Positions 2,076 to 21,800 of a stretch of DNA of 32,542 bases are shown here, piece after piece; positions within the stretch are counted from its first letter, which is position 1; the number at the start of each line of letters is the position of its first letter. The stretch is from Nitrosovibrio sp. Nv4 (GTDB taxonomy: Bacteria > Pseudomonadota > Gammaproteobacteria > Burkholderiales > SG8-39), in contig CAMDRF010000033.1 of the NCBI GenBank assembly GCA_945906765.1, positions 1-32,542 of the forward strand, given 5' to 3'. Made by a program: the position numbers and the translations under genes. The notes beneath the pieces are model-generated. The model had not been told where the DNA came from. It saw only the letters and a program-made list of their open reading frames with translations, and did no database searches.

Positions 2076-3622
2076 TCGGCACCTCCGATGACGAATTGGC
2101 GCAGGCGGAATCCCAGCAGCAGCAGGCAGGCGCCGTAGACCGCGCTCCCCAGCAGCACCAGGCCCGCGAGCATGCCCACTTTCCATTGCCAGCCCGCCGC
2201 CAGCCAGGCCGACGCGGGACCCATCGCAATGACCAGCGCCGCCGCCATTGCGACAACCGACACGCCGACTTTGAGGGTGAAGGCCAGCCACCCCGGCTGC
2301 GGATCGTAAATACCCTGTTTGAGCAGGTACCGATAGAGCAGCGCGGCGTTCAAGCAGGCGCCGAGGCCGATCGCGAGCGCGAGGCCTGCATGCTTGAGCG
2401 GACCGATGAACGCGAGGTTCATGAGCTGCGTCGCGGCAAGCGTGACCAGGCCGATCTTCACCGGCGTCACCACGTTCTGCCGCGCATAGAAGCCGGGCGC
2501 GAGGATTTTCACCAGGATCATGCCGACCAGCCCGAGGCTGTAGGCGACCAGCGCCTCGCGCGTCATCCAGGCATCCTGCGCACTGAATTGTCCGTAGTGG
2601 AACAGCGTCGCGATCAGCGGCATCGCGAGTACCGCCAGCGCCGCCGCCGCCGGCAACGCCAGCAGCAGGGTCACGCGCAACCCCCAATCGAGGAGCCGGC
2701 TGTATTCCGCCGACGCGCCGCCGGCATGGTGTTTCGCCAAGCTGGGCAGAAGAATTGTGCCAAGGGCCGCCCCGAGCACGCCCGCCGGAAATTCCATCAG
2801 GCGGTCGGCGTAATACAGCCACGAGACGCTGCCGGTGACGAGGAACGATGCAAAGATGGTGTTGATCAGCAGCGATATCTGGCTCACCGACACCCCGAAC
2901 ACCGCGGGCGCCATCAGTTTGAGCACGCGCGCGACGCCCGGATGCTTCAGGTCGAAGCGCCAGCGCGGCAGCATGCCGATCTTCCAGAGAAACGGCACTT
3001 GCAGCGCGAGCTGCAGCAGGCCGCCAATGAACACCGCCCAGGCGAGTACCAGCACCGGCGGATCGAAGCGCTCGGCGAAGAACGCGGCGCCGACGATGAA
3101 TGAAACATTCAGCAGCACCGGCGTGAACGCCGGCACCGCGAAGCGGCTCCAGGTATTCAGGACGCCCGCGGCCAGCGCCACCAGCGAGATGAAGAGGATG
3201 TAGGGAAAGGTGATGCGCAGCATCGCCACCGTCAGCTCGAACTTGCCGGGCTCCGCGGCAAAGCCCGGCGCCGATACATAAACAACCAGCGGCGCCAGGG
3301 CCATCCCCAACGCGGTTGCCGCCAACAGCGCGAGGAACAGTGCCGTGGAGACGCAGTCCACCAGTGCCCGCGTATCTTCGGCGCCGGCTTTTCCTTCGTT
3401 GCGGTTGCGCACCTCGGCCAGGATCGGCACGAAAGCCTGCGAAAATGCCCCTTCGGCGAACAGGCGCCGCATCAGGTTGGGGATGCGCAAGGCCACGAAA
3501 AAAGCATCGGTCGCAAGCCCTGCGCCAAACAGCCGGGCAATGAAAGAATCCCGCACGAAGCCCAGCACCCGGGAAAGCAGGGTCATGCTGCTTACGGTAG
3601 CCAGGGTACGCAGGAGGTTCAT
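2072..3622 (-). CDS. murJ: Lipid II flippase MurJ
   Basis: 516 aa polytopic membrane protein of the MurJ/MviN (MOP) family, which flips lipid II across the inner membrane for peptidoglycan synthesis. The N-terminus is diagnostic: [18 protein letters not shown], then [19 protein letters not shown] and [17 protein letters not shown], followed by many hydrophobic segments consistent with about 14 helices. Length fits the family. The chosen start ([13 protein letters not shown]) drops 15 residues from the ORF-track start, which lie in the intergenic region. It is divergent from rpsT with only 38 bp between starts and overlaps the downstream SirB1-like gene by 4 bp. Confidence 0.95.
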
Positions 3623-3630
3623 GCTAGAAT
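3621..3630 (+). promoter_or_regulatory. Candidate extended -10 promoter of rpsT
   Basis: TGCTAGAAT (an extended -10, TGnTAGAAT) begins inside the divergent murJ start codon and is correctly placed to start an rpsT transcript with a leader of about 24 nt. No convincing -35 hexamer is visible, which is tolerated by extended -10 promoters. Confidence 0.45.
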
Positions 3631-3660
3631 CCGCGCCTTTTTCGAAGCTGGAACAAACAC

Positions 3661-3924
3661 ATGGCAAACATCAAATCGGCCCGCAAGCGGGCGCGCCAGG
3701 CAGTCGGGCTGCGCAGCCGCAACATGAGCCTGCGCACCACCGCGCGCAGCGCGATCAAGGAAGTGAAGAAAGCCATCGCCGCGGGCGACAAGAAAGCCGC
3801 CGCCGCCGCGCTGGTAAAGTCGCAGTCGGTCATCGACCGCGTCGCAGCCAAGGGCGTCGTGCACCGCAACGCCGCCGCGCGCCAGAAGAGCCGCCTCGCC
3901 CACGCCATCAAGGCGATGGCCTAG
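3661..3924 (+). CDS. rpsT: 30S ribosomal protein S20
   Basis: 87 aa, lysine/arginine/alanine-rich, with the typical S20 opening [13 protein letters not shown] and the [21 protein letters not shown]-like helix seen here as [19 protein letters not shown]. It binds 16S rRNA early in 30S assembly. Ends with [10 protein letters not shown], the usual S20 tail. It is a single gene, divergent from murJ and convergent with the DUF3579 gene, whose stop lies 26 bp away. No clear intrinsic terminator is visible in that gap. Confidence 0.97.
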
Positions 3925-3950
3925 TACAGAAAACAGGGTCCCTCCCCCAT

Positions 3951-4307
3951 TCAATCAGTATCACCGGCGCGCAGCACCTTGGCGAGCTCGGTCCGGCCGG
4001 CGACGCGCCCGTCACGCGTCTTGAGTTCATTTTCCTCGGCGAAGCCGAGCAGGAAGCGGTAAGCCATCGGCTCGATTTCCTCGAGCCGGATGTCCACCAC
4101 CACGCAGCGCACCCCCGAGGCGGTCACCGGATGAACGTAAGGGGAGTACTGCATGCGATGGTCGCCGCCAAACGCGGACATCACGCCGCACAGACGCTCG
4201 GCCCAGTCGCTCGGCCGGAACGGCTTGCCGTCCAGCGTCACCCCCTGAATGACGAACTCGACGACGGCGGCGTCGGCTGCCGTTCCTCCGCGCATGGCCT
4301 CGAGCAT
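3951..4307 (-). CDS. DUF3579 family protein
   Basis: 118 aa. I recognise the betaproteobacterial DUF3579 family by FVIQGVTLDGKPFRPSDWAE, RLCGVMSAFGGDHRMQYSPY and GVRCVVVDIRLEEIEPMAY. The function is unknown. From memory it often lies between rpsT and arginine genes, as here. Two ATG starts are possible (4307 and 4295); the first lies 5 bases after a TATAAT hexamer, so the message would be leaderless or almost so. A GGAGGAACGG run falls inside the coding region and cannot serve either ATG. It is divergent from the decarboxylase gene, sharing one small AT-rich box with it. Confidence 0.85.
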   Translation of the reverse strand: MLEAMRGGTAADAAVVEFVIQGVTLDGKPFRPSDWAERLCGVMSAFGGDHRMQYSPYVHPVTASGVRCVVVDIRLEEIEPMAYRFLLGFAEENELKTRDGRVAGRTELAKVLRAGDTD

Positions 4308-19201: not shown

Positions 19202-19810
19202 ATGCATATCGTCTGCCTCGATCTCGAGGGCGTACTCATCCCGGAAATCTGGATCGAGGTCGCCGAGCGCACCGGCATCGCGGCGCTCCAGCGCACCACG
19301 CGCGACGGGCCCGACTACGACAATCTCATGCAGGGGCGCCTTGCGATTCTCGCCCAGCACAAGCTGCGCCTCGCTGACATCCAGGCGGTGATCGCCGGCA
19401 TGGCGCCGATGGCGGGCGCGCGCGCGTTCCTCGACAGCTTGCGCACGTCGCGGCAGGTGGTGATCCTTTCGGACACGTTCTACGAATTCGCCGCGCCCAT
19501 GATGGCGCAGCTGGGCTGGCCGACGCTCTTCTGCCATCGGCTGGAAGCCGACGCGCAGGGTTTCGTGCGCGCCTACCACCTGCGCATGCCCGACCAGAAA
19601 CGCGCCGCGGTCGAAGCCTTCCGCGCGCTGAACTTCAAGGTGATCGCGGCGGGCGATTCCTTCAACGACACTTCGATGCTCGCGGCAGCCGATGCGGGCA
19701 TCTTCTTCCGCCCTCCTCCCGAGATCGCCGCGCGGTTTCCGCAGTTCCCGGTGACGCAGGACTACGCCGCGCTCGCCGCGGCGCTGGACGCCGCCGCCGC
19801 GAAGCTCTGA
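19202..19810 (+). CDS. thrH: Phosphoserine phosphatase / homoserine phosphotransferase ThrH
   Basis: 202 aa HAD-family enzyme. Closely matches Pseudomonas ThrH as I remember it: CLDLEGVLIPEIWIEVAE (nucleophile Asp in DLEGVL), TTRDGPDYDNLMQGRL, VVILSDTFYEFAAPMM and IAAGDSFNDTSML (Mg-binding Asp). It removes phosphate from phosphoserine and can transfer phosphate to homoserine. Start ATG 19202; the track's earlier ATG at 19139 lies inside the sulfurtransferase gene. It is followed after 5 bp by the DUF2784 gene. Confidence 0.93.
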   Translation: MHIVCLDLEGVLIPEIWIEVAERTGIAALQRTTRDGPDYDNLMQGRLAILAQHKLRLADIQAVIAGMAPMAGARAFLDSLRTSRQVVILSDTFYEFAAPMMAQLGWPTLFCHRLEADAQGFVRAYHLRMPDQKRAAVEAFRALNFKVIAAGDSFNDTSMLAAADAGIFFRPPPEIAARFPQFPVTQDYAALAAALDAAAAKL

Positions 19811-19815
19811 GACCG

Positions 19816-20181
19816 GTGGCTGACGCGCTTCTCGTTCTCCATTTCCTGATTGCCGGATTCATCGTTGCGGGGCTGGTCCTGGTGTGGATCGGCGCGCTGG
19901 CCCGCTGGGCCTGGATCCGCAATCCCTGGTTCCGTTACCTGCACCTCGCGGCCATCGTATTCGTCGCCGCCGAAGCCCTGCTCGGCATCGCCTGCCCGCT
20001 CACCGTCTGGGAAGACCTGCTGCGCGGCGGCGCGCGGCCCGATTCCTTCATCGGGCGCTGGGTCGCTCGCCTGCTCTACTACAACGCGCCGGAGTGGATG
20101 TTCACCGCGCTCTACGCGGCTTGGGCGGCGGCGGCGCTGGTGACACTAAGGTTGGTACCTCCAAGACGAAAGGGGCGCTAG
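19816..20181 (+). CDS. DUF2784 membrane protein
   Basis: 121 aa, GTG start. About three to four hydrophobic helices: LLVLHFLIAGFIVAGLVLVW, YLHLAAIVFVAAEALLGIAC and MFTALYAAWAAAALVTL, with ACPLTVWEDLLR between them, as in the DUF2784 family. Function unknown; inner membrane expected. Last gene of the Rieske run. The final 68 bp have a diverged second copy about 690 bp downstream, past the toxin-antitoxin remnant. Confidence 0.85.
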   Translation: MADALLVLHFLIAGFIVAGLVLVWIGALARWAWIRNPWFRYLHLAAIVFVAAEALLGIACPLTVWEDLLRGGARPDSFIGRWVARLLYYNAPEWMFTALYAAWAAAALVTLRLVPPRRKGR

Positions 20182-20217
20182 CGACTCCATTTCGCGGGCG
20201 AACAGAAGATTAACAGC

Positions 20218-20250
20218 TATGATCGATATCATGATAGATACCAATATGAG
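20218..20250 (+). promoter_or_regulatory. Candidate promoter/operator of the Phd-like antitoxin
   Basis: A small AT-rich island (unusual here) holds TATGAT at 20218-20223 as a possible -10 and the perfect palindrome TATCATGATA at 20227-20236, with related half-sites nearby (gatagata, ccaatatg). Antitoxins of this family typically repress their own promoters by binding such palindromes. GAGG at 20247-20250 is the antitoxin Shine-Dalgarno. Confidence 0.5.
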
Positions 20251-20257
20251 GACCTCC

Positions 20258-20545
20258 ATGAATATCCTCACCAATGCACAAATCAAGCGCCGCGGCATTG
20301 CCGCAGTCGAGGATGCGCTGCGCCGCGGGCCGGTGCATCTAATCAAGCGCAACCGGCAAGTGGGCGTGGTCGTCAGCGAAGCCGACTATGCGGCGGCGGC
20401 GGCGCGCTCTGGCGCGCAGCCTGGCGCGGCGGCGCAGCCGGATTTTCTCGACTGGTTCATGGCCGATCAACCAAGCGGCAAGCTCGACGCGGCCGGACTG
20501 CAGCGCCGCATCGCCAAGGAACGCGCTAGCTGGAACGAGCGGTGA
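20258..20545 (+). CDS. Phd/YefM-like antitoxin
   Basis: 95 aa. The N-terminal half has the Phd-type DNA-binding pattern (MNILTNAQIKRRGIAAVEDA, then GPVHLIKRNRQVGVVVSEADY). The C-terminal half (DFLDWFMADQPSGKLD to ASWNER) is the toxin-binding tail. ATG 20258 follows GAGG by 7 bases; the track's earlier start at 20219 lies in the promoter. Its stop overlaps the ATG of the PIN toxin remnant (TGATG), so this was a two-gene operon. The toxin is broken, leaving the antitoxin orphaned. Confidence 0.8.
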   Translation: MNILTNAQIKRRGIAAVEDALRRGPVHLIKRNRQVGVVVSEADYAAAAARSGAQPGAAAQPDFLDWFMADQPSGKLDAAGLQRRIAKERASWNER

Positions 20546-20773
20546 TGCTGTTCCTCGACGCGCGACCTTGAAGTGTTCGATGTCAGCGCGGCGGTGCTGG
20601 AGCGTGCCACCGAGTTGCGCGCCGCGCTCGGGTTGAGGACGGCGGACGCGATTCACGCCGCCACCGCGCTGTTGGCAGGTGCGCGCGCGTTCATTACGTC
20701 AGATGCGGGGTTCGAGCGGGTGCCGGGATTGAACGTGTGCCTGGTCAAACTTTCCGGGCGGAAGGTCAGATAG
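20545..20773 (+). pseudogene. PIN-domain toxin remnant (internal deletion plus frameshift)
   Basis: The first six codons read MLFLDA, the classic PIN N-terminus with the first catalytic Asp, in frame from the ATG that overlaps the antitoxin stop; that frame ends at a TGA a few codons later. In the +1 frame, from about 20561, follows the C-terminal PIN third: RDLEVFDVSAAVLERATEL, LRTADAIHAATALL and AFITSDAGFERVPG, with the late catalytic Asp residues. Roughly the middle half of a normal 130-140 aa PIN toxin is missing, and the two parts are out of frame. No nuclease activity is expected. Confidence 0.85.
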
Positions 20774-20800
20774 GCACCTCCTCGGTTGCCGGAACAGCTT

Positions 20801-20893
20801 GGGCTTTACTCCGCGTGGGCAGCGGCAGTGCTGTTCACATTGGGATTGGCGCCTCCGAGGCGAAATGGAGCAACGGATGCTGCAGGACTATAA
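20801..20893 (+). pseudogene. Detached 3'-end copy of a DUF2784 gene
   Basis: Reads GLYSAWAAAVLFTLGLAPPR, RNGATDAAGL and stop. This aligns with the end of the intact DUF2784 gene (ALYAAWAAAALVTLRLVPPR, RKGR): 16 of 23 residues and 49 of 68 bases match by my count (20107-20174 against 20801-20868). There is no start codon or upstream part of the gene. It must be a leftover from recombination or insertion at this locus. The TAA lies inside the TATAAT proposed for mntA. Confidence 0.8.
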
Positions 20894-20902: not shown

Positions 20903-21193
20903 ATGCAGCCCTCTACTGCCCTCAGAAACCGCAAGGACCGCGTCCTTGAGATCGCGCGCGCGCACCGAATGCAGCGCTTGCGGGTATTCGGCTCCGTCTT
21001 GCACGGCACGGATCGGGAGGGAAGCGACCTTGACCTGCTCGTGGACGCCCCTCAGGGGACGACGCTTTTTGACCTCGCCGGTTTCGAGGAGGAACTGCGG
21101 GAAGCCTTGGGGGTGCCGGTTCAGGTGCTGACCGAAGGCGACCTGCCGCAGCGCATCCGCGGCCGCGTTCTCGCGGAAGCCAAGCCGCTTTGA
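20903..21193 (+). CDS. mntA: MntA-type nucleotidyltransferase antitoxin
   Basis: 96 aa minimal nucleotidyltransferase. The GSx10DxD active-site motif is complete: GSVLHGTDREGSDLD, followed by LLVDAPQGTTLFDL. In characterised MntA/HepT pairs the antitoxin adds AMP to a tyrosine of HepT and so neutralises it; the motif supports that role here. Its stop overlaps the hepT TTG start (TTGA), giving coupled translation. Confidence 0.88.
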   Translation: MQPSTALRNRKDRVLEIARAHRMQRLRVFGSVLHGTDREGSDLDLLVDAPQGTTLFDLAGFEEELREALGVPVQVLTEGDLPQRIRGRVLAEAKPL

Positions 21194-21540
21194 GCGAGCG
21201 GGACCTCGTCTATCTCGACAGCCTGGTTGATGCCGCCGATGCGATTCGCGAATTCATCGGTTCGCTTACCAAGGAAGAATTCTTCGCGCAACGGCTCGTG
21301 CGGGATGCTGTTCTGCGCAATCTGGAAGTGCTCGGTGAAGCCGCGGGCCGCGTGAGCGCCGAACTGCAGCGCGCGCATCCGGAGGTCGCATGGAAGAAGG
21401 CCGCCGGAATGCGCAACCACCTCGCGCATGGCTACTTGACGTTGAACATGGATCTGATCTGGGATACGGTAAAGCGCGACGTACCATCGATCGGCGAGCA
21501 GGCGCGAGCGATACGATCCAAACTTGAAGACGGCAAGTAG
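21190..21540 (+). CDS. hepT: HepT-like (DUF86) ribonuclease toxin
   Basis: 116 aa helical HEPN-domain protein. The catalytic RX4HXY motif is intact in GMRNHLAHGYLTLN (R-NHLA-H-G-Y), the same motif that carries the AMP-accepting Tyr in known HepT proteins. Other family stretches: LVRDAVLRNLEVLGEAAGRV. TTG start overlapping the mntA stop; ggaag lies upstream. Together with mntA it forms an apparently intact toxin-antitoxin module, in contrast to the broken PIN system next to it. Confidence 0.88.
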   Translation: MSERDLVYLDSLVDAADAIREFIGSLTKEEFFAQRLVRDAVLRNLEVLGEAAGRVSAELQRAHPEVAWKKAAGMRNHLAHGYLTLNMDLIWDTVKRDVPSIGEQARAIRSKLEDGK

Positions 21541-21593: not shown

Positions 21594-21800
21594 CTAATTC
21601 TGCAATCCTCTGCGCAATCCAATGGTGCGTTCAATCAGCCCGCGCTGAAACCTGAACTGATCGATTGCCCACTCGGCGTAGTCCTCGCTCGATTTGTACC
21701 AGTCCACGAAGTCGAGTCGCCTCAGGAGTTTGTCGTATTCCGGATCATCAAGTGCGCGATAAAAGACATCGTGCAAAATTTTCGTGCGCGCAGGATCCAT
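21594..21800 (-). CDS. Small hypothetical protein
   Basis: 68 aa, not recognised. It looks like a real protein, not a shadow: charged and aromatic, probably helical (ILHDVFYRALDDPEYDKLLR, then FVDWYKSSEDYAEWAIDQFR), with no competing gene on the other strand and a reasonable Shine-Dalgarno (gcaggt) 4 bases before ATG. It lies at the edge of the toxin-antitoxin patch. A role in that patch is only guilt by association. Confidence 0.5.
   Translation of the reverse strand: MDPARTKILHDVFYRALDDPEYDKLLRRLDFVDWYKSSEDYAEWAIDQFRFQRGLIERTIGLRRGLQN

Follow-up and report, generated by a model that had tools for sequence, protein, structure and literature searches.

Two diverged copies of a DUF2784 gene tail around toxin-antitoxin genes in Nitrosovibrio sp. 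Nv4: a probable scar of one-sided recombination

One-sided displacement has been proposed for T6SS effector-immunity arrays (PMC5361080). Such homology-facilitated illegitimate recombination, of which the Vibrio T6SS arrays in that paper and the C-terminal displacement of rhs genes are examples, resembles the locus described here in that a new module follows an upstream anchor that is conserved, and the old 3' end lies displaced further downstream. In our case, however, an unrelated housekeeping or restriction-modification (RM) gene serves as the anchor, and an intracellular toxin-antitoxin (TA) module as the cargo. A small addiction-type gene pair between direct target copies of ∼100 bp is also what insertion with long target duplication leaves (Nobusato 2000, as cited in PMC3874152 and PMC3031569); by contrast, the copies considered here differ like orthologous coding sequences and not like duplicates made by an insertion. 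The ccdO157 islet between folA and apaH is similar as a TA locus that is situated between core genes, varies among strains, and decays, but a tail scar goes unmentioned in the available part of its description (PMC7167474), where the way in which TA modules integrate is stated to be unknown. A full-text literature search with partial coverage yielded no paper combining toxin-antitoxin systems with homology-facilitated illegitimate recombination.

The window, i.e. the whole stretch of 32,542 nucleotides analyzed here, comes from a metagenome-assembled genome of Nitrosovibrio sp. Nv4 (3.1 Mb in 149 contigs). It carries a complete DUF2784 gene and, beyond a Phd-PIN segment, a second, diverged copy of approximately the last 90 bases of this gene (Table 1). 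The end of the gene (tail 1, 20107-20174) and the orphan copy (tail 2, 20801-20868) are identical at 49 of 68 positions (72%) without gaps, while the runner-up match to the tail anywhere in the window reaches 34/68, and the 99th percentile for the best match of random 68-mers from the window, used as the background, is 45. A protein search of the same genome with DUF2784 returned exactly two places, the full gene (E=4e-76) and positions 20798-20869 (E=9e-4). Tail 2 is open and reads GLYSAWAAAVLFTLGLAPPRRNGATDAAGL up to the stop codon TAA at 20891-20893. Both the match of about 72% and the in-frame continuation of the second copy to its own stop had been noticed in an earlier sequence-only reading, and both are borne out. 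The signal at the window's own locus is carried by 68-90 bp alone.

Table 1. Features of the window around the two DUF2784 tails, and other TA loci bracketed by gene tails
Locus	Feature	Coordinates	Strand	Basis or remark
Window	DUF2784 gene, complete, ending in tail 1	19816..20181	+	PF10861, E=1.6e-22; orthologues in 57/98 family genomes
Window	Tail 1 of DUF2784, codons 98-121 and stop	20107..20181	+	49/68 identity to 20801-20868
Window	Antitoxin leader with 10-bp palindrome TATCATGATA	20208..20260	+	Sequence itself
Window	Phd-like antitoxin, 94 aa	20261..20545	+	Homologues 39-45% identical, matching from residue 1
Window	PIN toxin start, MLFLDARP then stop	20545..20571	+	Overlaps antitoxin stop; aligned to intact L041 PIN
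Window	PIN toxin, C-terminal half	20564..20773	+	PF01850, E=3.5e-10, positions 71-119 of 120
Window	Junction, PIN end to tail 2	20774..20800	.	DUF2784 similarity ends at 20798-20801, none upstream
Window	Tail 2, orphan DUF2784 C-terminus with own stop	20801..20893	+	Nucleotide match and protein search
Window	MNT nucleotidyltransferase, HEPN/MNT antitoxin	20903..21193	+	PF01909, E=1.6e-10; PADLOC PDC-S09, E=1.6e-27
Window	HepT-like RNase toxin	21190..21540	+	PF01934, E=1.1e-24; intact RNHLAHGY motif
Window	TctC receptor gene relic, C-terminus only	21594..21800	-	78-81% identical to C-termini of two full G001 TctC genes
L050	Gene-tail bracket, GIY-YIG gene			Copy frame-shifted
L053, L054, L055	Gene-tail brackets, hsdR
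L057	Gene-tail bracket, MerR-like
L134 (G424, window's own family)	Acyl-CoA synthetase-like tail, 654-codon reading frame, MNT-HepT, tail copy			71%
L221	Gene-tail bracket, MacB-like permease			86%

The 20 differences between the tails are distributed over the first, second, and third codon positions as 4/3/13 (p=0.004), unlike the decay of a non-coding duplicate, and so both copies appear to have diverged as parts of working genes. A recent target duplication, which the sequence-only reading had also argued against, is rejected on the 72% identity and this codon-position pattern; for the same reasons the flanking copies cannot be treated as duplicates of one target. Tail 2 is nearest to tail 1 (49/69, compared to at most 44/69 for the tails of 27 relatives), which points to a close yet unsampled source.

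In comparison with the sister species (G005), identity falls from 89% in the gene body to 62% in tail 1, and the fraction of changed third positions rises from 24 to 70%. Fast variation of the tail is general, with z=1.55 for this pair on total differences; the mean third-position excess of the window's tail is the largest of 27 genomes. The jump in divergence suggests that one tail has been replaced, either in the window's species or in G005. As the hydrolase is missing at this site in G005, the tail of the latter may itself be the altered one. GC3 is 0.46 in the last 13 codons of tail 1 and 0.86 in the DUF2784 body, but the third positions are AT-rich in both tails and hence composition cannot pick the native one; no sampled relative is close to either tail. 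Import of a tail from a homologous DUF2784 gene by recombination, as proposed from the sequence alone, agrees with the jump and the codon bias and is the best reading, in which either tail may be the native one.

Both genes that had been placed between the tails, a Phd antitoxin and a PIN remnant, are present, the former starting most likely at 20261 rather than at 20219. The palindrome in its leader is a possible operator. The Phd-like product scores 13.1 bits with the PF02604 antitoxin profile, below the cut-off of 29.8, and its homologue beside a PIN gene in L041 also stays below this cut-off. None of the other genus members covered by the homology search has this gene, while homologues with 39-45% identity occur in other families of the order, one of them adjoining a PIN gene (L041); therefore, the gene looks like a foreign one that was brought in. 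The PIN toxin is not intact. Alignment to the intact L041 homologue shows that ∼66 codons have been deleted and the frame lost, which refines the remnant to a start piece (20545-20571) and a frame-shifted C-terminal half (20564-20773). In L041 (genome G311) itself, the intact Phd-PIN pair is located between two convergent TctC genes (445-1419 and 2270-3225), one of which has an in-frame stop.

The segment joins two TA modules, which had escaped the earlier reading: a complete MNT-HepT pair begins 9 bp after tail 2. Like the type VII (HEPN/MNT) MntA-HepT system, it consists of PF01909 and PF01934 genes overlapping by 4 bp, and both catalytic motifs are kept, GSx10DxD in MNT as GSVLHGTDREGSDLD and Rx4-6HxY in HepT as RNHLAHGY, so that the pair is apparently intact. 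However, its scores with the NCBIfam MntA-HepT equivalog profiles (31 and 40 bits) are below the cut-offs of 60. Further downstream, a TctC relic is situated between HepT and the hydrolase; in G001 (L026), two full tandem TctC genes (2255-3277 and 3303-4253) occupy the same place, and hence most of the TctC segment was deleted in the window.

The usual gene order in the relatives is rhodanese, DUF2784, and a convergent alpha/beta hydrolase or queG, and in most relatives examined the 3' end of the hydrolase or queG gene touches or overlaps DUF2784, with no insert between them, the arrangement that the sequence-only reading had proposed to look for. In three congeners (G001, G002, and G008), an RHH-VapBC pair begins 40 bp past the DUF2784 stop. 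Given this pair and the absence of the window's Phd from the other members of the genus, the TA modules acquired at the DUF2784 site differ from species to species, and this variability supports the earlier view of the region as a recombination site. The same Phd-PIN pair behind another DUF2784 gene, the other arrangement proposed for checking, was looked for and not found; congeners carry RHH-VapBC instead. The extra DUF2784 tail is present in the window's genome alone among 98 family genomes. No donor allele, be it DUF2784-Phd-PIN or DUF2784-MNT-HepT, was found in these 98 genomes, and so neither side of the recombination has been observed. The window (19202-19810) and G005 (L024, 4795-5358) also have a ThrH gene (phosphoserine phosphatase/homoserine phosphotransferase) between rhodanese and DUF2784, an insertion seen only in these two among ten relatives compared.

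We consider it fairly probable that the segment is a recombination scar produced by one-sided homology, with the tail of another lineage left as an orphan. The incoming DNA would have come from another lineage and comprised the final part of its DUF2784 orthologue with a TA module directly behind it. Homology inside the resident DUF2784 gene would anchor this DNA on one side only, while an illegitimate join at the far end would fall within the resident tail or shortly ahead of it. The outcome would be a DUF2784 gene that is complete but chimeric, followed by the TA module and by the tail of the other lineage as an orphan. The surviving joins would be those that spare the start or end of the downstream gene, and the recipient's tail would thus stay. 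Such an insertion probably persists because both tails are retained, which leaves the upstream gene and the downstream neighbor unbroken. With alleles of the site carrying different modules in different species, two would have become stacked here, the decayed Phd-PIN and the apparently intact MNT-HepT. The segment may thus fuse a DUF2784-Phd-PIN allele with a DUF2784-MNT-HepT allele, and tail 2 could equally have arrived with MNT-HepT. Both the one-sidedness of the homology and the order of events are what we infer from this arrangement.

The junction of hsdR and hsdS provides a comparison. Here, orphan tails were sought with the hsdR C-terminus alone, blind to TA genes. In insert-free genomes (G113, G334, and G255), the hsdR and hsdS genes share 4 bp (ATGA). 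Five genomes have a TA pair that separates a complete hsdR from an orphan hsdR tail, Phd-YafQ in G304, G037, and G144 and MNT-HepT in G391 and G154. In G066, the insert at hsdR is a DUF4143 ATPase and an orphan tail is present, and in G166 (L197) the orphan tail has shrunk to ∼10 bp. The hsdR tails differ mainly at third positions and are too short for a tree to resolve. As the orphan tail still overlaps the hsdS start in G304 and G066, the simplest reading there is that the orphan belongs to the recipient and has never moved, the complete hsdR carrying the incoming tail. Seven hsdR loci (L189, L190, L191, L187, L188, L196, and L197) show TA modules and the DUF4143 ATPase landing repeatedly at the hsdR-hsdS junction, with an orphan hsdR tail at all but one insert.

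The main rival of one-sided recombination yields the same product from a circle by a single crossover: two tails would recombine and release a circle with the TA genes and one tail, which would then enter the same gene of another cell through ordinary homologous recombination. This would create exactly the order tail-TA-tail in one step, and it would suit G304 and G037, which belong to different families and have the insert, the junction, and the orphan tail in common (751 bp at 87%). On the other hand, an earlier event is needed to create the bracketed state, and 68 bp are too little to resolve the chimerism of the tail under this model. Overall, we regard a circle as unlikely at this locus.

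The same pattern, not seen in the sequence-only reading, recurs at other TA loci. These were collected by homology to Phd, PIN, or HepT alone, and a locus was considered bracketed if the TA gene was flanked on both sides by the copies of a direct repeat (≥40 nt and ≥45 bits, with the copies 0.3-3 kb apart). As controls we used random positions in a further 364 kb of DNA of this order, a large part of which came from the same genomes. In the first set, which was looked at after the pattern had been noticed, 10/74 TA loci were bracketed, compared to 0.9% of random positions. The second set was prospective: of 29 MNT loci fetched later, four were bracketed (p=1e-4), one of these four by a clear gene tail. 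Taken together, direct repeats bracket 14/103 other TA loci, compared to 0.9% of random positions. In at least seven of these 14 loci, the repeat is the 3' end of a neighboring gene (Table 1; MerR-like and acyl-CoA synthetase-like are names from reading the sequence, not from a family search). Even for these gene-tail brackets alone, 7/103 against 0.9% gives p=4e-5. The nucleotide bracket test with controls replaced a self-search for repeated tails at the protein level, whose matches were mostly due to chance. Pooled over nine bracket pairs of gene segments, the differences at the three codon positions are 42/29/104 (p=1e-12). L107, one of the nine, has no third-position bias (4/1/2), and neither has G424 (7/8/10).

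These codon positions bear on the possibility that insertion was accompanied by a long target duplication, as for restriction-modification genes, and that the copies diverged later. The target duplications of RM systems are in the order of 100 bp (PMC3874152), similar to the size seen here. However, the third-position bias in nearly all cases is unexpected for a non-coding relic, tail 2 is open to its stop, and 72% identity would demand great age, which makes this explanation quite doubtful. Tandem DUF2784 paralogues, one of them deleted save for its tail, would account for third-position-biased divergence, and full tandem genes had been named as the case that would overturn the earlier reading. 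We looked for them in 98 family genomes and found no tandem or adjacent pair among the 57 that carry DUF2784; moreover, paralogues leave the same scar at hsdR and other genes unexplained, and we consider them very improbable. Islands classically integrate at the 3' ends of genes and replace the tail, but a site-specific integrase-type element that brought a new 3' end and has since shrunk to its cargo is the least probable explanation of all, given that there is no integrase gene between the tails and no att core (the longest identical run shared by the tails is 5 bp), the insert is just ∼0.6 kb, and modules and junctions differ at the same gene.

The presence of the same scar around other TA pairs in related bacteria points to an entry route of small selfish modules. 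Extending the one-sided reading beyond the window, we tentatively suggest, with confidence just short of even, that gene-tail capture serves chromosomal TA modules as a general way in: they would ride on the 3' end of the preceding gene, land beside orthologues of it through homologous recombination that is either one-sided or mediated by a circle, and leave behind a diverged orphan tail of the recipient or the donor. The scar would explain how insertions are tolerated between tightly overlapping genes, and, if the suggestion is true, orphan gene tails beside TA modules are a record of past insertions. As the scar is recognizable by sequence, is enriched at TA modules, and occurs at six unrelated genes in one order, the question of entry can be approached by counting; computer searches can gather empty sites, donors, and junctions, and laboratory strains could be used to rebuild the recombination.

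The remaining bracketed loci were excluded as tail scars, L061, L109, L210, and L224 as their repeats are unclear as gene tails, and L107, L110, and L211 as the repeats are internal gene segments. In L107 (880-1116 and 2226-2462) and L110 (1-162 and 2058-2219), sugar-transferase and rfbC-like segments, 97 and 93% identical, flank MNT-HepT, and these internal-segment brackets are perhaps a related product of recombination. In L210, three copies (331-412, 942-1145, and 1880-2088) of a non-coding or unrecognized repeat of 80-200 bp are found around the MNT-HepT locus.
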